Assembly (NCBI GenBank): GCA_951799425.1
Contig: OX637397.1
Span: 1,550,001-1,614,000 of the forward strand
Reading direction: 5' to 3'
DNA length: 64,000 nt
From: Ilex aquifolium
Lineage: Eukaryota > Streptophyta > Magnoliopsida > Aquifoliales > Aquifoliaceae
The position numbers were made by a program, and so were the translations under genes. A model generated the notes under the pieces. That model made no database searches and was not told where the DNA came from. It worked only from the letters and a program-made list of their open reading frames with translations. Shown in pieces: positions 6,001 through 60,647 of this stretch (position 1 is its first letter; each line of letters begins with the position of its first letter).

Positions 6001-8884
6001 CAACCAATGACAGAGTTTGAAAACCACGCGCACATACCAACAATTTGTTACTTATAATTAATTTATCATTTAGATCACGACAATAGCTAAGAAAGTATTA
6101 AGATCGGGACAATTTACAAAAGGATTATATGTCACAGTTCCTTCGTGTGACCGTCTTTAGTATATAGAATATAGTTTCGGAGCCAAACATGGAAGACAAC
6201 AATGAAAAAAGAAGATCCGTCTAATCTACTGCTTAGTATAAATAATTCAAGATATCCTTGAACCTTTGTTATCTAAGCAAGGGATTTCTATATTATCCTT
6301 ACTTATGTTTCGTTTAATTTTTCAAAGGTTGAAATAATTTAAACAAAATTCGAAACCTAAAATATATCCATATGCATAAAGATTCAAGGTGTATGGGAGC
6401 TACTTAAGTTGGAAACAATAACCCTAGAGGTTGGAATTAAAATGTAGTCATGAAGAAACATAAATATACAAAATGAAGGCAAGGCAATATGGTTTTCATG
6501 CAAGACATGAGAGGGACACCATGAGCAAAACACCTTCTTTTTTTTTGGGTTTATCAGAAAGTTATGAGCAAAACACTTTAATGGGGAATGTTCACTTTAG
6601 CTCCGAAAGGCCAATTTCCATGTAGTGATTGAATTATCTCAATCAATAAAGGTGATGACTCTATGGGATTAAATTCATTTTGTAGGTGGACTTTTTAGGG
6701 ACATAATTAACTTTAGGAGCATGGTTTTTAATGTTTAGGATTTGTAATTTTCCTTTTAGACTATACTTGTACGTTATATAAAAGGACTTTCAAACTAAAA
6801 AAAAAACGATATATCCAAGGGGGTCATAGTTTATAATTATATTAACAGTCAGGAAGTATACACATACATATTTATGAATTATTATATGATGGTATTGTTC
6901 ATTACGTAAAGAAAGAATAATTGTTGCATATATGAACTAGTCCAGGTGGTGAACTAAAAATAAGCTGTCGCTTTGTAACCTTTTTTAGGCGATTTGTTCG
7001 CTAAAAACACAAATCTCGTTTATTGTTTGCATCTTAGTATATTATTAATACACATTTACATATTTATAAATGTACTACTGTACATGCTAGTATGTTTAAA
7101 AGAAAGAGAAAACCCAAGGAAAAAAGAATTACAAGATCACAAACGTTTGATTTCGATACACATTGAATGAGCAATCCAAAAAAGAGTTCGGATCAAAATT
7201 GGTATTGAGGTACTGATATACCATTTACATCCAACCTCGCTTTGAATAAGTTTTACAACCCTAATGAGCTAACTCGACTTGGAAACCTATAAAATCAATA
7301 AAACAAAACTAATACTATCTACATAATCTGGTCAAGAGTCCATTGATCATGCTCCCCCATTGAAGCTTATGGGCTATAAGTTGAACTGGTATATTCACTT
7401 GAAACCATGCCTCAAAGATGAAGGTTTTTTTTTTTGGCTATTGTACAAAGGGGGGAAAGTGCGTGTCTTCCACTGTAGAATGCCTTTTTGGAGTCATAAC
7501 TATTAATCTGGAAAGACAGTTCATCACCATAACACTACCAAAACCAAGCAACAAACCATATTACTCAAGTGAATTGAACCCTATTTGATAACCGTTGCCT
7601 CATAGATGAAGTTGATTCTACATTTTGCCATGCATAGAATTGGTCCAGCTAGACTTCTCAATTTGGTCCAAGACAAGGAGAAGAAAGAGGCCGGATGAAA
7701 CAAAATTGCCTGCTTATTTTGCTTTGTGTCAAAGAAAATGGAGGCCCAACCTGTGCGGACCCTTAAAGCCTGTTTGTAAAAAAAAGAAGAAGATGATTCA
7801 AAATCAAGTGAATGGTCTCTTAGAAAATGTGCATATTCATGTTGGGATTTTGATCAATCAGCTCAGAACAAAACACAAGAACGGAAAGCCCAGCAAAATT
7901 GAGCTCTCAAGGCGACTAAGACCCAGAATAAGGGACTAGCTAGGTCAATACTCAAAGAAGCTCTATTCACAGACCCAGATCTAACTTGAGCTTAACAACC
8001 CCCATAATTCCTTGTTTCTCTAGGTAATTTTTTTTTTTTTTTTCCCCAAATGATCTCGAGTAATGTCTAATCTGTCACCAAGTGTTTGAGATTAACACGA
8101 AAATTTTCAAAATTAGAAGGGGGTCCATGAATCATTGTCTATGGAAAAGAATGTCCAATCATGAAATTAACTCATATCTGGGTCTGGGTCTGGGTCAGGC
8201 ACATGATAATTTTATTTTTTTGAAAAAAGTAGTAATTTTTTTTTTAAGTTTTGATTCATCAAACACACCCGTTAGTCAGCATAACAGAATTAATTGATTC
8301 ATTCATCAAGGCATTATTGCGTGGTCTTTGGCAAAGAGTCATCAGATGCTCTACTTTTCTTAGAGGTCTTGAAATGAATGATTGCAGTAAAAGTAGAGGA
8401 CCTAATCAAAGCTCCATGTTACCATGTTACCCAAAGTTGAAAAATGGCTTGTCAAACATGGTCCCATTTATGGCGGTGCCAAGCACAAAATAGGATAATT
8501 CTATACTTTATCAATTTTTTTTTTCAAATCTCTATTCTAAATGACACCGTTTTTCACAATCAGATAAGTGAGTCTCATTAATATTCAATGACGAAAATTG
8601 TGTCACATCATTTAGAATAAAAAATTTAATAAAAAAATTTGATAAACATAACATTTTTCCACAAAATATAGCATCAAATTAGGGTATGGCCAAAATCATT
8701 AGAAAATTTTCAATTCAAGGTTGTGTCTTGATCCATTCTCTCTCACATTGATGATGTATATATATATATATGGAAAAAATAATAGTATTTTTCCATATGA
8801 TGTCAATAAAACAATTGTAAATATTAGTTTGAGTTTTATGAAATCATTGATCATATTAGGTAGAAAATAATACAAATTTTTTTT
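3051..8884. other. Intergenic stretch without recognised genes
   Basis: AT-rich DNA with many homopolymer runs. Frames of up to about 100 codons occur (for example 4932-5201 and 7625-7939), but none shows a family motif or a convincing exon structure. A short (TA)n tract lies at 8757-8771. I see no RNA gene here. Confidence 0.5.
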
Positions 8885-11430: not shown

Positions 11431-11465
11431 AATTAAGGAGAGATGCTAAAAAAGTCTAATTTGAA

Positions 11466-11486
11466 TAGCTCAGGAGGGATAGACAA
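11466..11486 (-). promoter_or_regulatory. TAS3 3' miR390 site (cleavable)
   Basis: The plus strand reads TAGCTCAGGAGGGATAGACAA, which here is described against miR390: positions 2-17 are identical, including 10 and 11, so the minus-strand RNA pairs perfectly across the slicing position. Cleavage is predicted between 11476 and 11475. Mismatches are confined to miR390 position 1 and the 3' tail (18-21), as usual for this site. Confidence 0.93.
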
Positions 11487-11602
11487 GGAAGGAGAATGTG
11501 AGTTGGGCACGAACGGGGAAAGAAAATGACCAAACCCTACATTCGGGAGAGTAGATGTAGGGTTTCTAACACAATAAAAAATAAAAATAAAGGAAAGAAA
11601 AT

Positions 11603-11623
11603 GGGGTCTTACAAGGTCAAGAA
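11603..11623 (-). ncRNA. tasiR-ARF unit, D7-like
   Basis: The minus strand begins TTCTTGACCTTGTAAGACC and ends CC, matching the conserved plant tasiR-ARF that targets ARF2/3/4. It ends one base away from the seventh 21-nt register counted upstream from the predicted miR390 cut (11602-11622). Confidence 0.93.
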
Positions 11624-11644
11624 AAGGTCTTACAAGGTCAAGAA
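11624..11644 (-). ncRNA. tasiR-ARF unit, D8-like
   Basis: It directly abuts the other unit, with no spacer. The minus strand begins TTCTTGACCTTGTAAGACC and ends TT, differing from its neighbour only in the last two bases. It corresponds to the eighth register with the same one-base offset. Confidence 0.93.
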
Positions 11645-11731
11645 GACTCAACATGAAAGAAAAATAAAAGGCAACAAGTCAAAAAAATCATAAAATAAAA
11701 AGAAAGTGAGATGAAACTACGGTAACGGGAA

Positions 11732-11752
11732 AAGCTCAGGCAGGATAGCACC
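11732..11752 (-). promoter_or_regulatory. TAS3 5' miR390 site (binding, non-cleaved)
   Basis: Compared with miR390 the plus strand is identical except at positions 10, 11 and 19. The two central mismatches fall exactly where AGO7 would cut, as in other TAS3 genes, where the 5' site recruits AGO7 without slicing. It begins 3 nt after the stop codon of the leader ORF. Confidence 0.93.
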
Positions 11753-11755
11753 CAA

Positions 11756-12028
11756 TTAAGATGAAAAAGCCACCATTAAGATGGAGCCTTCAATGCTGAA
11801 TTCAAGGCCTCCGGTGACCCTTCCATCAGCAAAGACCTCTGTGCCCCCATGGTTCTGCAGAGGGTTTGGCAGGATGGTAGAGGGTATGAAACCATTTGTG
11901 TTACTGGCTTGAGGTTGATAACCTGCATCAAAGATATATATATGAGATAAGCCTAATTGTATTAAGAACAAGAAGATCTACATTTATATGTTTTTTTGGG
12001 TACATCTTCTGCTTCTAAATGATGTGTG

Positions 12029-12061
<33 letters not shown>

Positions 12062-12401
12062 TTGAATCTATCACCAATTGCAAAAAAAGCCATGAAGACA
12101 TTGTTGTCAATCAACTGATCAACAAAAGATTATAAGCTGGAAGGTGTCATTCAGTTTAAAATTGAAAGAACACAAAAGTTATTTGCTTGGCACTGAAAAA
12201 AGGAAGAAGCAGAAGAAGAAAGATGCTTAGCTTTGTTTATATTATAAGAAAGGTTCAACTAGTCCTCAAATTCCACAAATTGTGGTACAATGAATTGACC
12301 ATACAAAAGATGATAAGTCTGAACATCCCATACTAAGTTTTCATACCTTGTAGGAATTTCAGTCTTGCTTTCTGCTTTGCAATCTTCTCTCTCTTCCCCA
12401 T
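11756..12401 (-). CDS. TAS3 leader short ORF, two exons, 73 aa
   Basis: Exons are 12401-12347 and 11922-11756, joined at CAAG-GTATGA and GATGCAG-GTT, in frame (222 nt with stop). The peptide starts MGKREKIAKQKARLKFLQ, a basic helix-like segment, and ends GGLEFSIEGSILMVAFSS; I recognise no domain. It is the first ATG after the predicted transcription start. TAA (11758-11756) sits 3 nt before the 5' miR390 site. Arabidopsis TAS3 also has a short ORF ending close to this site, where ribosomes stall at the AGO7-SGS3 complex, so its position, more than its peptide, is likely to matter. If the intron is not removed, exon 1 reads only a few codons further. It could alternatively be a coding gene sharing the locus; the fit to TAS3 makes that unlikely. 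Confidence 0.75.
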
Positions 12402-12424
12402 AAAAAGCACACCACACACTTGCA

Positions 12425-12427
<3 letters not shown>

Positions 12428-12469
<42 letters not shown>
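12428..12469. repeat. (GA)n microsatellite in the TAS3 leader
   Basis: On the transcribed minus strand this is a CT-rich tract between the predicted start and the leader ATG, a common composition for plant 5' untranslated regions. Frames running through it (LSLSLS runs) are not genes. Confidence 0.9.
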
Positions 12470-12510
12470 GGGTGAGTGAGGGAATGAAGAAAGTGAGAGA
12501 GAGCATGGGC

Positions 12511-12518
12511 TTATAAGA
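12511..12518 (-). promoter_or_regulatory. Probable TATA box of TAS3
   Basis: The minus strand reads CTTCTTATAAGCCC. Transcription starting about 30 nt downstream (near 12482) gives a leader in which the first ATG is that of the 73-codon ORF; the only nearby upstream ATG (about 12504) would lie before the start. Confidence 0.5.
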
Positions 12519-29146: not shown

Positions 29147-29524
29147 TTACAGTGTAAAGGACACTGTTATGCCAGATCGAGTCCTGATTGTGATTTGACC
29201 AGGTGAAGGGTTGTCCATGTAGATTTCACTCAAGATGAACCAAAAGAAGAACTGCTTGGCCTGAACACCTGTTAGCTGGGTGATCTTTTTGGGGCTAACA
29301 TAGGCGGTGATGACATAGTCAAACCAGAGGAGCCTACCCCCAATGTCTTCAATTCTGATCACTCCCTTCTGCCTCTGTCTAATCCACACAAACCCAGTTT
29401 CTCTCTCGTACCGAAATTCTTCTATATTTTGGAGGGGTATTAGCCATTCAGAGAACCCCATTTCTATCAACAACAAACCCAGCTTCTCTCTGCATATTGC
29501 ATCTCCATAATAAACCTCAGACAT
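29147..29524 (-). CDS. DUF538 family protein, single exon, 125 aa
   Basis: The protein starts MSEVYYGDAICREKLGLLL and contains the DUF538 core: MGFSEWLIPLQNIEEF, RETGFVWIRQRQ, an ITAYVSPKKITQLTGVQAK segment and LSEIYMDNPSPGQITIRT. The function of DUF538 proteins is poorly defined; lipid-binding-like folds and stress roles have been proposed. There is no signal peptide, which fits the intracellular subgroup, and the length is usual for the short members. The ATG at 29524 is preceded on its strand by a CT-rich leader. It is convergent with SFR2. Confidence 0.92.
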   Translation of the reverse strand: MSEVYYGDAICREKLGLLLIEMGFSEWLIPLQNIEEFRYERETGFVWIRQRQKGVIRIEDIGGRLLWFDYVITAYVSPKKITQLTGVQAKQFFFWFILSEIYMDNPSPGQITIRTRSGITVSFTL

Positions 29525-37150: not shown

Positions 37151-39166
37151 TCAGTATCTTTCATTTCTTCTATCATCCAAGATACAGTCAAAACAATCTA
37201 CTGCTCCTACATACCCTATATTGCTATACAAACACCGCACTAAAACGTTCCATGTAGCAATGTTGGGGCAAATTCCTTCCTCTAACATTCTCTTCAGATA
37301 AGTATTGGCTTCGTCTAAACCTACCCACTTACAAATCCCATATAAAAGACTAGTGTATACAAATATATTTGGACGCCAGCCTCCAGCCCTCATTGCATCC
37401 AGAAGTTTAATGGCACAGTCGACCTTACCCTGCTTACAGAAAGCGTTAATTACCATGTTAAATGAGTGAGTATCAGGCTTTATACCCCTGACCAGCATTT
37501 TCCCAAAGACCTTTAGAGCCTCCTCAAGCATGCCAACACAACAGAAGCCATAAATTATAGTGTTGTATGTCAATATGTTGAACTCAATTCTCCTGTCCTC
37601 CATCTCCATAACAAGCTCAAATGCCACCTTGAAGTTGTTGTCTTTGAAGAGACCATTCAAAAGCACGTTATACGTCGTTACATCAGGCAAGCACCCATAT
37701 TTTTCCATTTGATCAAACAACCTCATTGCCCAAGCAACTCTTCCACTGGCACATAAACTTTTAATAAATGGAGTGACTATAACTGCACTTGGGAAGCAAT
37801 TTCCCATCACCATATTCTCCACAAGACAATAGGCTTGGTCAAACATTAGATTCCTGCAAAGGGCATCCACCATGCAGGTATAGACTACATCATTAGGATG
37901 GCAACCATGTGTTATCATCTTGTTCCACATCTCAGATGCACCAACCAAGTTCCCAGATTTTGCAAACCCGTTTATGAGGGTACCATAAGTTGTTGCATTT
38001 GGAAAGCACTCACTTCTCTCCATTTGATTAACAATGGATACCGCTTTGCTCATATTCCCAACAGAGCACAGACCATGTATCAGTGTGTTATACGCGACAG
38101 TGTTGGGCAAAACTCCCTCCCTGATCATTCGGTCCCAAACATCAAGAGCTTCATACCATCTCCCATTCAAAAAAAACCCTTTTAGTAAGGAAGCAAAGGT
38201 GTAAATATTTGGACTGCTTCCTCTCACAAACATTCTGGCTAGAAGGGCAAGAGACAGCTCAACACTACCCAAATCAGAAAGAGCATTGATGATGGTTGTG
38301 TACGTGAGGACATTTGGGCTAAGTCCCTTTTTCTGCATCTCTTCCATCAACTGGAACGCTTCCTCAACTTTGCCTTCTCTACACAACCCTTTCATCAAAG
38401 CATTATAGACAGGCACAATTGGGGTGAATCTCAAGACAATTTCCCTCGCTTCTTTCACCTTGCCAAGCTTACACAAAGACGACACAATCGTGGTATAGCT
38501 CACCGCATCAGGAGAGCATCCCTTGTTTGACATTTCCACAAGCAACTTATAAGCTCCATCCACCCTATTATTCTTACACAATGCCTTCAAAAGAATGTTA
38601 TAAGTATACACATTTGGCTCCATCCCATCTTCTTTCATGTTACTATAAATTGGATTAATCATATGAAACCTATTCTCACTAAGCAATGCATCCAATAGGT
38701 GATTATAAATCTTAACCGTAGGTTTACACCCAAAATCGTGCATCCGATAAAAGGTTTTCAACGCTTGATCTGCACCTCCAGCTCGACGATACGAATTGAT
38801 CACACTAACAAACAAATCTTCGGAGCAACTGATACCCTCCAACTTCATCTGTTGCAAAAGGTACTGAACACCATCCATCTGACCTACATGACCCAGTTTT
38901 TCAACCATCATATGGTATGTCAGAGGGGTGTGTTTGAAAGATCTTGAATTGGATACAGATTTGAAGAACTCTAATGCTACATTGATGTCACGTTCATGAC
39001 TTAACCTCTTCAAAACATCAGACTCCTTAACTGTGTTTGGGGTTTGTTCATTTTGAGGATTGGAACTGAGAAGTGGGTTTGTATTGAGGACAAAAGGTAT
39101 TGAGGGTTTGTGGACTTTTAACAGTAGTGAACATCCTCCTTTCAAATGAATTGATTCCAAATTCAT
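37151..39166 (-). CDS. P-class pentatricopeptide repeat protein (At3g48810-like), 671 aa
   Basis: An intronless gene made almost wholly of 35-residue PPR units, for example PNVYTYNILLKALCKNNRVD and PDAVSYTTIVSSLCKLGKV, from about residue 75 to the C terminus. It has no E/DYW tail, so it is P-class. Such proteins bind organellar RNA and steer its processing, stability or translation. The open frame extends up to 39499, but I place the start at 39166 (MNLESIHLKGGCSLLL) because the Arabidopsis relative starts at the equivalent point and the upstream 111 residues do not resemble a PPR protein N terminus. The segment KIYNHLLDALLSENR and the spacing match At3g48810 (659 aa) by recall. Plastid or mitochondrial targeting is expected but not decided. 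Confidence 0.93.
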   Translation of the reverse strand: MNLESIHLKGGCSLLLKVHKPSIPFVLNTNPLLSSNPQNEQTPNTVKESDVLKRLSHERDINVALEFFKSVSNSRSFKHTPLTYHMMVEKLGHVGQMDGVQYLLQQMKLEGISCSEDLFVSVINSYRRAGGADQALKTFYRMHDFGCKPTVKIYNHLLDALLSENRFHMINPIYSNMKEDGMEPNVYTYNILLKALCKNNRVDGAYKLLVEMSNKGCSPDAVSYTTIVSSLCKLGKVKEAREIVLRFTPIVPVYNALMKGLCREGKVEEAFQLMEEMQKKGLSPNVLTYTTIINALSDLGSVELSLALLARMFVRGSSPNIYTFASLLKGFFLNGRWYEALDVWDRMIREGVLPNTVAYNTLIHGLCSVGNMSKAVSIVNQMERSECFPNATTYGTLINGFAKSGNLVGASEMWNKMITHGCHPNDVVYTCMVDALCRNLMFDQAYCLVENMVMGNCFPSAVIVTPFIKSLCASGRVAWAMRLFDQMEKYGCLPDVTTYNVLLNGLFKDNNFKVAFELVMEMEDRRIEFNILTYNTIIYGFCCVGMLEEALKVFGKMLVRGIKPDTHSFNMVINAFCKQGKVDCAIKLLDAMRAGGWRPNIFVYTSLLYGICKWVGLDEANTYLKRMLEEGICPNIATWNVLVRCLYSNIGYVGAVDCFDCILDDRRNERY

Positions 39167-39549
39167 GACTCCTAAAACCCGAAACCCATCAAAACTCTCA
39201 GAATTATCGAAAACCCAAGATGGGAAATGATCAGAACAATCAAATAAGCAACTGGGTACACTGAAAATACAGGTTTTGGGATTCAGTAGCAAAATTTCTT
39301 CTACCAGAAAAAAGAAGACAAGCAAGATTTCAAATTGAGGAACTATCTCAAAATACATCAAACTTACAGAGAAGGTGTGTACAGAACGAACCTCAGATGT
39401 ACTAAAACACCAACAAATTCCTGCCCAGTTTGGTTTGTGCACAAACTTTGTGCTGAGCAATGATCTAAGGTCGTTTTGTTTTTCAGTGCTCTGCTCCACA
39501 CGGCTCTTCGGCTACACGAGTTAATTGTGATCGTAGATCTTACATTGAT

Positions 39550-54210: not shown

Positions 54211-54780
54211 ATATATATACTAGTAATTACCCGTGCCTGAAGGCACTATATTACTTGTAAAAAATTACAAATATTTGTTCATAAATAAAGACAATGTCAA
54301 ATATAATTTAAACAATACAACGATCAAATTGATATTGTTCAATTTATATGAAAAACATATATAATTAAACTTTTATATAACGAAAGTCACGGTACAACTA
54401 CTGCAACATATTAATTCAAAAATCTGAGAAAATATAATTATTATTGATAATACATCTATGATTTTAACATTTTTAATAAACTTTATCTTAAATTTGAAAA
54501 AATTATAACTATTTGTGTTTCTGCAGGTTTTTACCTAATGTTTATAACATTATCTCTGCACTATTTTTTCAATGTGAGTTTGTGTAACTTTTGTGAGGAA
54601 AATATTCATAAGTTTCACGTGAATTTTAGTAAATGTAAAAAATTTTGTTAAGAAATTAAAATCAATTTCTATTTCAGTTCAACTTAAATATTTGTAAAAT
54701 TCAATCGAATTTAAGTTTAAGTAAGAATTTGTACTTTATACTTGACAGTCAAATTTAGCGCAATTCGAGTTTTAATCATA

Positions 54781-55700
54781 ATTACGTCAAATCGAGAATT
54801 GAATTTAAGTTTGACTCAATTAACACTTCTATCTTAAACATACAAACTAATTCTTATTTATTCTCGTTCATAATGACACCATAATTTTTTTTTAATTTAA
54901 TTATTCATTATTATTTTTACAATCAATTTCAATTTTGACTTCAACTTTGAATATTCGTAAAATTCAAGCAAAATTAATTTTAAACAAAAATATATACTTT
55001 ATACTTGACAATCAAATTCAACTCAATTCGAATCATAATCATAATTACTTTGAACCGATAATCGAGTAAAATGAAAGGATTCTAGTAATTTTTGCGCGGG
55101 AAAAAAAATTTGGAAGAGTAGTTTTGATCAATAATATTAAAACAATTTGACCCACAAAAACTCAAGACAAACAATGATAACTCCCTTAATATATAGATAT
55201 ATCACAAATTATATACATTATTCGCTTATTATAGCATAATTACGTCAAATCGAGAATTAAATTTAAGTTCGACTCAATTAACATTTCTATCTTAAACCTA
55301 TAAACTAATTCTTATTTATTCTCGTTCACAGTGACACCATAATTTTTTTTTAATTTAATTATTCTTTATTATTTTTACAATCAATTTCAATTTGACTTCA
55401 ATTTTGAATACTCGTAAAATTCAAGCAAAGTTAAGTTTAAACAAAAATATATATTTTATACTCGACAATCAAATTCATCTCAATTCGAATCTTAATCATA
55501 ATCACTTCGAATCGATAATCTAGTAAAATGAAAAAATTCTTGTAATTTTTGGGCGGGAAAAAAATTTGGAGGAGTAGTTTTGATCATTTGATCAATAATC
55601 TTAAAACAATCTGACCCACAAAAAATTCAAGACAAACAATGGTAGCTCCCTTAATATATAGATATATCACAAATTTTATATATATATTATTCGCTTATTA
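54781..55700. repeat. 458-bp tandem duplication
   Basis: The unit beginning ATTACGTCAAATCGAGAATT at 54781 recurs from 55239, and similarity continues to TATTCGCTTATTATA near 55700, including ATTCTCGTTCA(T/C)A(A/G)TGACACC and the CAAGACAAACAATG end. Divergence is modest. Confidence 0.85.
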
Positions 55701-56147
55701 TACCATTTGAATATTTTAGTATTTTTATTTCAATACAAAATATGACAAATATTATAGTCATTCAACTTGTTTTGATGCAAAAAATATGTATTTAAGGTCC
55801 ATTTGTTTATTTAAAAATTTTAAAAATAATCTGTAATTATATAGAGTCATAATTAACGACCTAATTAACGTGTAGTATGAGATAGAAAAAGAGAGGCTTA
55901 TAAGAGATATCGAAGTCTTAGAATTGTGGAAGGAATAAAAGTCTTGTTCAAAAATTGGGAGAGAGAATTTCGCATTAGGACCGTCAGATCAATAATCGTC
56001 AAACGATCTGAGCCACAATGTAAGTGAGAAGTGATGGAATTGGAGGGGGAGAATTCAATGTGAATGGTTTTAAGAGGGATAATGGTGGCTGCTGGATAAG
56101 TCTAGTTAAGACTGTCGGATGAGCTTATTGAAGTCTATGATGTTTTA

Positions 56148-56640
56148 TAGGGGTGTCAATCGTATCGGATTAGCCGGTTACGTGTCGGGTTAAATGGGTA
56201 ACGGGTGAAAAATATATAAACTCATACATGATACGTTTAATAAACAGGTAAAAAATTTTAACACAAACACGAACCATTTAATAAACAGGCAATACGACAC
56301 GATTCGTTTAACCCATTTAAAAAAAATATTATTTTAATAAATTTTTACACTTCATTTATTTGCTTCCAACTGTACTTTCCTCAATTGAAGGAATTCCAGC
56401 CAACAGCTCACGTGAAAATCACACCACAAATGTTAGTTAAAATGAGAAGTCCACTACCTTTTTTTATAGGCAACTGAAGTCTCCCCTCTTCATTCATTGT
56501 CGATGTGGGATTCAAAGAAAATGGCCAAAAGGCAATTCAATGCCTCAAGGCTCAAAACTTCACTTTCCTACTACTGATATCTTTACTTTTTTTTTTTGAA
56601 ATGTTTTCTTTATTTTTTTTTCTTTACTCATTCATTATTT

Positions 56641-56672
<32 letters not shown>

Positions 56673-56740
56673 TTATATTAAATTTATTTAAACAGGTAAA
56701 CGGGTTGACAGGTCTCACCCGAACACGACCCGTTTATTAA
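56148..56740 (-). mobile_element. Second CGTGTCG-type hAT-like copy, inverted and interrupted
   Basis: TAGGGGTGTCAATCGTATCGG opens it (core GGGGTGTCAATCG), followed by motifs matching the reverse of 32970-33560 such as TTTAATAAACAGG. The end AAACAGGTAAACGGGTTGAC and GTCTCACCCGAACACGACCC reappears only at 56689-56740. The roughly 330 bp between (from about 56350) are unrelated, so another sequence was inserted. Confidence 0.65.
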
Positions 56741-56861
56741 TATAGATATATAGATAGATAGATAGATAAATAGGGCAGCATATGTTAATGAACTTATATT
56801 TTTTTAGAGATAATCCTTATTATTAGAGTTTTAATAGATTTAACATATATTTTGTTTTTAT

Positions 56862-56900
<39 letters not shown>

Positions 56901-57130
56901 ATATAACCATCAAAGTCAATCTCTCCCATGAGAATGAAGAGAGATAAAAAAGAATGTGGTAGAGTCCTGTAAGAATGTAGATATTTATCCAATGGTTTGA
57001 ATGAGGATGAGGAGAGATAAAATGAATGTAGTAGAGTCCTGTAGAAATGTAGATTAATTAGGATCGTTGGATCAAAAACCTGAAAATGATCTGAGCCGCG
57101 AAAAGCTCAAGACAAACAAATCTAGCTACT

Positions 57131-57979
57131 TTATTATATAGATATAATGGGATTTACAGGACAGAGGTAGCGGTAAGTGTCAGTTTATCTCTGTACAAAT
57201 TTATATGGATATTTCGTATCCATTCACCATCCAATACGTATAATTTATCTTCAATTCAAATAGGATGAATTTGGACTAATTCTTGTTTTTCTTTGATCCA
57301 CTATCATCCCTAGATGGTGATCACTTTTTTTTTGGTATCAGTTGATTTGAAGTTATTATTCAATGATTTTATAGTATATAATATCATCTCATATTTGGTA
57401 TATACAACACAATTAAAAATATGTGTGTTTGTGTCTGTATACGTGCAGGGTTAGAAGTTGGAACGGATAGGAACTGGGCCTCGTTTGCAGCCGTTCAAAG
57501 TTCAAATCCGTGTCGTGGGAAATAATACTGCCACATCAGCCAAGAATAATCCAGAAAATCTTCAGAGAAAGTGATAGCCCGAGGCATATCGTATAGTTCA
57601 AAAACTTAACCACTAAGGCAGATCAAATATTACTCTTATAAACAGAAAATACTTCGGATCTCAAATTTGCGATTGGATCCTCAATGGGTGTCGAGATTTT
57701 TAAATTAATTGAAATGCGCATAAAATAATTTAAATACCCTTCTAATACAAGGAAAAAAAAAATAGAAAAGAAAGATGGTTAAATCGGTCCTTATTGAAAC
57801 ACGTTTATATTTATCTTATTTCATGAGACCGACAAAGCATACCAAATAAATCCTGCCAATAATTGCTCAAGTCCTCCATCCACTTTAATAATCTGAGTTC
57901 TCAGTATATCAACAAATTTGTATAATATTTATATTCCCATAAAGATAAGAAGAGAAAACAACGTTTATAGGCAAGAGAG
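57131..57979. other. Intergenic, no gene recognised
   Basis: On the minus strand TGCCTTAGTGGTTAAGTT (about 57610-57627) resembles a pol III box A, and a box-B-like GGATTTGAACTTTGAAC lies near 57493-57510, but the spacing exceeds 100 bp and no tRNA fold is apparent. Confidence 0.35.
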
Positions 57980-60125: not shown

Positions 60126-60647
60126 ATGGTGAGAAGATTGATCTTCCTAGTGTTCATCTTCCTCCTTCATCTCTTTCTTTTTAGCCAAGTCTCCGCCCTG
60201 GCTCGAGGAAAAGATTTGATAGCCAGAACATGCGAGCAAACACCGTACTATGAACTTTGTGTCTCGTCACTCAAATCAAACCCTCGAAGCTCAAATGCAG
60301 ATGTCCGTGGTCTTGCCTTCATAATGTTCGATACAATTAAGGGTAAGGCAGCAGAGGCGCTGAAACGCGTCGATGAAATCATGGAAACAAAGCCGCAGTG
60401 GAGACAACCCTTGCTTAAATGTGTGTTTGTATACGAGTATGGCATTTTGAGTTCTTCTATGCCACAAGCCATAGAGGCATTGGGTAAAGGAGTACCCGAA
60501 TATGCTGAGACAAGCACATCAGATGCTGCCAATGAGGCCAATGTATGTGAAGAAAATTTCAAGCCAAACAGATCACCACTTGCTGATTTGAACAAAGTTG
60601 TCCATGATCTGTCCGTTGTAGCTAATTCAATAGTAAAGATGTTGTGA
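60126..60647 (+). CDS. Invertase inhibitor / PMEI-domain protein, 173 aa
   Basis: A secreted four-helix-bundle inhibitor. Relatives block cell-wall or vacuolar acid invertase, controlling sucrose breakdown; sister proteins inhibit pectin methylesterase. Residues 1-26 are a signal peptide. The four conserved cysteines are Cys36 and Cys45 (C-x8-C, in TCEQTPYYELC), Cys99 (LLKCVFVYEYG) and Cys141 (ANVCEENF), forming the two family disulfides. PQAIEALGKGVPEYAE and SPLADLNKVVHDLSVVANSI match tobacco cell-wall invertase inhibitor best by recall, favouring an invertase target. The Pro-Lys-Phe motif that enters the invertase active site is Pro124-Glu125-Tyr126 here, so inhibition strength or target could differ. 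No intron, as is usual for the family. Start chosen at the first ATG in frame; an ATG 6 bp upstream (60120) is out of frame or gives the same context and is not preferred. Confidence 0.93.
   Translation: MVRRLIFLVFIFLLHLFLFSQVSALARGKDLIARTCEQTPYYELCVSSLKSNPRSSNADVRGLAFIMFDTIKGKAAEALKRVDEIMETKPQWRQPLLKCVFVYEYGILSSSMPQAIEALGKGVPEYAETSTSDAANEANVCEENFKPNRSPLADLNKVVHDLSVVANSIVKML

Follow-up and report, generated by a model that had tools for sequence, protein, structure and literature searches.

Arabidopsis TAS3a (AT3G17185) yields its tasiR-ARFs at the seventh and eighth phased steps. TAS3 subfamilies with two tasiARFs and with one, together with a noncleavable 5' miR390 site, are described in PMC3835848 and PMC5902766. 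Translation of the TAS3 short open reading frame (sORF) and ribosome stalling are treated in PMC11062462 and PMC5207768, and the placement of the sORF beside the 5' site in Arabidopsis TAS3 is covered in PMC11062462 and also in PMC5207768, PMC12127299, PMC6572396 and PMC8860578.

The locus described here lies on the minus strand of the window, the whole 64-kb stretch of Ilex aquifolium DNA analysed (C7:1550001-1614000), and on the strength of its sequence elements we read it, at a probability of about 0.96, as a functional two-tasiARF TAS3 gene of the TAS3a type. With Arabidopsis TAS3a and other seed-plant two-tasiARF TAS3 genes, as described in PMC3835848, it shares a pair of miR390 sites, with mismatches at the cut in the 5' one, and a pair of tasiR-ARFs that abut and occupy nearby phased steps. 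As in Arabidopsis TAS3, an sORF lies upstream of the 5' site, a layout that is already known because PMC11062462 describes it for that gene; the sORF comprises 73 aa here versus 50 aa in Arabidopsis TAS3a, and here it appears to be split by an intron. Arabidopsis TAS1 and TAS2 likewise combine an sORF near the miRNA site with phased output (predicted, in our case), but they use miR173 (22 nt), AGO1 and a single hit, according to PMC5207768 and PMC5902766, and have other targets. A short one-unit TAS3 elsewhere in the genome (C10:9435540-9435730) has the same two-site miR390 layout and an ORF, of 29 aa, ending near the 5' site (its stop lies 10 nt before it); it differs in having one unit, 5' mismatches at positions 12 and 17 instead of 10 and 11, and sites 149 nt apart, and its unit lies 105 nt (5 x 21) from the 3' cut, free of any 1-nt offset. 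The window locus is probably a functional, ordinary TAS3, another member of a well-known kind of gene, and the word "hidden" in the earlier note overstated the case because TAS3 is a well-known family of plant noncoding RNAs.

miR390 sites, tasiR-ARF units and phase

When both window strands were scanned for miR390 complements, with up to six mismatches allowed, only two sites appeared; both lie on the minus strand, separated by a gap of 245 nt (11731-11487), the spacing first proposed in the earlier note. The 3' site (11466..11486) is perfectly paired over miRNA positions 2-17, again as claimed, with mismatches at 1 and 18-21. The 5' site (11732..11752) had been called mismatched exactly at positions 10 and 11; both mismatches are there, and a G:U wobble at position 19 makes "exactly" true only with wobbles allowed. 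The two sites flank the siRNA region; pairing runs through the predicted cut in the 3' site and is broken at 10 and 11 in the 5' site, where binding is expected but not cleavage. In a comparison by eye with the dicot TAS3 primers printed in PMC3835848, the window's 5' site agrees with its primer at 19 of 21 bases, and the 3' site agrees with TAS-Maca at 19 of 19.

Between the sites, two copies of TTCTTGACCTTGTAAGACC abut on the minus strand (11644-11624 and 11623-11603), in agreement with the earlier reading. Cleavage by miR390 is predicted between 11476 and 11475 in the 3' site, and the 3' fragment would start at 11475, the very position anticipated for it. The unit starts lie 148 (7 x 21 + 1) and 169 (8 x 21 + 1) nt upstream of the predicted cut, which places unit 2 (11603..11623, minus strand) at step 7 and unit 1 (11624..11644, minus strand) at step 8; the tandem units follow a 21-nt register, each 1 nt off the exact position. 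We count this offset against the reading as a functional TAS3. Also counted against it, provided that Rfam includes a TAS3 model, is the Rfam scan of the whole window, in which no family reached the gathering threshold. An ATG-started ORF at 11433-11654 (minus strand, 73 aa) does run through the tasiRNA units, as the earlier note had warned. Three features go beyond that note: a putative intron, an sORF lying upstream of the 5' site, and an offset of 1 nt in the phase.

The sORF and a decayed duplicate on C11

A TATA-like box, TATAAG, is found at 12510..12515 (minus strand), and transcription would start near 12485. On the same strand, the first part of the sORF would run from an ATG at 12401 through a putative exon (12347..12401), delimited by alignment to a duplicate on C11, followed by a predicted 424-nt GT...AG intron (11923..12346) and a second exon part (11756..11922) ending in the stop TAA (11758-11756). 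Removal of 12346-11923 links the ATG to a 73-aa frame whose stop lies 3 nt upstream of the 5' miR390 site; the sORF thus ends beside that site, its start in exon 1 depending on the proposed splice. In both the window and the C11 copies, conserved exon blocks flank a poorly conserved, GT/AG-bounded stretch whose interior is mostly unalignable, and the fact that exon blocks, splice sites and the TATA-like box are conserved in a diverged duplicate supports the reading as a functional TAS3. An in-frame upstream ATG at 12506 is missing from C11 and sits directly below the TATA-like box; it was therefore rejected as the sORF start.

The duplicate itself (C11:31944829-31945564) appears to be a decaying TAS3 in a largely collinear segment, with sORF frame and stop position retained. 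Window positions 1.1-12.7 kb align to C11 in inverted orientation in 11 blocks of at least 60 nt, including a dioxygenase-like gene; 10 of the 11 are collinear, the out-of-order block being 8302-8387, and we take the C11 copy to be a segmental or whole-genome duplicate. Window 33-57 kb yields a further 11 C11 matches, which are either scattered or repeated. The window's dioxygenase-type gene probably extends over 1150-2899, with DIOX_N in an ORF at 2154-2540; identity to the C11 segment is 77% in its block 1150-1267 and 79% in its block 2151-2899. Within 54656-57143, stretches align at up to 92% identity to a single spot in the C11 flank, several of them covering the same bases there, and perhaps represent a dispersed repeat or transposable element. 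The window also holds a DUF538 gene (29147-29524, minus strand), a pentatricopeptide-repeat gene (37151-39499, minus strand) and an invertase/pectin methylesterase inhibitor gene (60126-60647, plus strand).

In the C11 copy, the 5' site is mismatched at positions 9-12 and 19 and the 3' site at 1, 2, 8 and 17-21; of its two tasiR-ARF units one is intact, 170 nt from the would-be cut. Such decay, with a unit lost and 3' mismatches that include positions 2 and 8, lends something to the idea that the window locus too is a relic, its elements persisting after transcription or processing was lost, and that the short TAS3 on C10, which retains good sites and a unit at 105 nt from its cut, is the sole supplier of tasiR-ARFs. 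However, the window and C11 copies differ at 47 of 207 aligned sORF bases, and despite this divergence both units are intact in the window copy, as are the 3' core and the mismatch at 10/11; the elements therefore look selected, and we consider a relic very unlikely.

The same duplicate bears on the proposal that the locus is mainly a small protein gene, with the 73-aa sORF product as its selected output and the tasiRNA part secondary. Spliced at matching boundaries, the C11 sORF is open and ends at the same stop position, although the RNA elements of that copy have decayed, and its two length changes, of four codons and one codon, are both in whole codons. Neutral simulations, which ignore length changes and selection on the RNA, gave a pN/pS as low in 10% of cases, an open frame in 24% and both in 3.3% (an earlier, simpler simulation left 21% open). 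Against this, the NG86 omega of 0.50 comes from two copies only and has a bootstrap range of 0.24-1.10 that spans 1, the probability for pN/pS alone is 0.10, and the differences at codon positions 1, 2 and 3 (16, 13 and 18) are barely skewed to position 3. A protein search with the 73-aa peptide returned no candidate homologue, which says little unless the collection includes plant proteins. We give hardly any credence to a locus that is mainly a protein gene, and the two-copy evidence for selection on the peptide is suggestive at best. A narrower possibility, that the TAS3 sORF peptide is selected in this lineage and was kept in C11 while the miR390 and tasiR-ARF elements decay, so that the copy would become a micropeptide gene or a stalling-only RNA, strikes us as unlikely; among the matches listed in a search of open-licence literature, no report on a conserved TAS3 peptide stood out.

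Rarity, trigger genes and candidate ARF-like targets

Searches of the 800-Mb genome (103 contigs) revealed three exact matches to the 19-nt core of the tasiR-ARF, two in the window and one on C11, versus none for the reversed control. The 16-nt core of the 3' site matched seven times, again versus none for its reversed control: four matches lie opposite exact MIR390 loci, and the others are the MIR390-like locus on C9, the window TAS3 and the C10 TAS3. These counts (3 versus 0 and 7 versus 0) argue for more than chance. Chance resemblance, for which we found no supporting point, is refuted by the genome counts, with two adjoining exact 19-mers, of three genome-wide, lying between the window's only two miR390 sites (up to six mismatches), and its probability is negligible. 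With up to two mismatches the 19-nt core gave 17 matches versus 9 for the reversed control: the three exact ones, nine sharing one single-base change, and five with two mismatches, among them the C10 short TAS3. The two-mismatch matches on C1, C5, C11 (9.4 Mb) and C15 were taken as chance, the reversed control alone having given 9, and miR390 sites (up to four core mismatches) were absent from the 3-kb loci around them. By these searches, the window TAS3 appears to be the sole intact two-unit copy in the assembly.

Exact miR390 occurs at four places, on C4, on C15 (two, 10.7 kb apart) and on C19, and all four fold into hairpins whose long stem carries miR390 on its 5' arm, each fold being the best of many window sizes, taken without a shuffle control. 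The 16-nt core match at C9:3740047 marks a fifth candidate, a MIR390-like locus whose mature sequence is a variant.

The nine core matches that share a base change are antisense to the 19-nt core save for that one base (G:U in RNA), and they read VLQGQE. The earlier note had suggested looking for paired target sites in ARF homologues, and these nine complementary sites fall in six ARF-like loci, two per locus and 207-210 nt apart on C3, C4 and C19 (19.83 Mb), and one per locus on C14, C20 and C19 (2.67 Mb). The frames that hold them are open for 240-334 codons at the six loci. Among ten pieces of these loci compared with Pfam, five match AUX/IAA, one per locus except C3, and the other five gave no Pfam match, two of these being from C3. 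The C14 piece matches ARF1, a solved ARF structure (E 1.3e-23), and a C3 piece matches chains of solved ARF structures at residues 154-187 (best E 2.1e-7), while C20 and C19 (2.67 Mb) are regarded as ARF-like from their AUX/IAA match and similar neighbouring frames. Because of site number and the missing C-terminal match, we infer that C3 would be ARF3, C4 and C19 (19.83 Mb) ARF4, and the one-site genes ARF2; ARF genes with more divergent sites would be missed by the search. The genome thus holds MIR390 genes as well as ARF-like genes with matching sites. Sequence elements, phase, MIR390 loci and ARF-like genes with sites were all read directly from the same assembly, and together they support the TAS3 interpretation put forward in the earlier note.

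Proposed mechanism and significance

For a functional TAS3 gene, established TAS3 biology suggests the course of transcription, splicing, translation, AGO7/RDR6/SGS3/DCL4 action and ARF silencing at this locus. The minus-strand transcript would be spliced and then exported, and ribosomes would translate the 73-aa sORF and halt where it ends, 3 nt short of the 5' site. AGO7-miR390 would bind the 5' site without cutting, and miR390 would direct cleavage of the 3' site between 11476 and 11475. RDR6 and SGS3 would turn the 5' fragment double-stranded, and DCL4, starting at the cut, would release one siRNA every 21 nt; the seventh and eighth would be the tasiR-ARFs, which may silence the auxin-response genes ARF2/3/4.

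The locus gives this genome a checkable TAS3 module of trigger, precursor and targets. The intact copy and the apparently decaying, sORF-keeping one form a natural pair in which the sORF as a peptide may be set against the sORF as a place for ribosomes to stop, and of the leads here only this retained sORF of the decaying copy merits a phylogenetic test.
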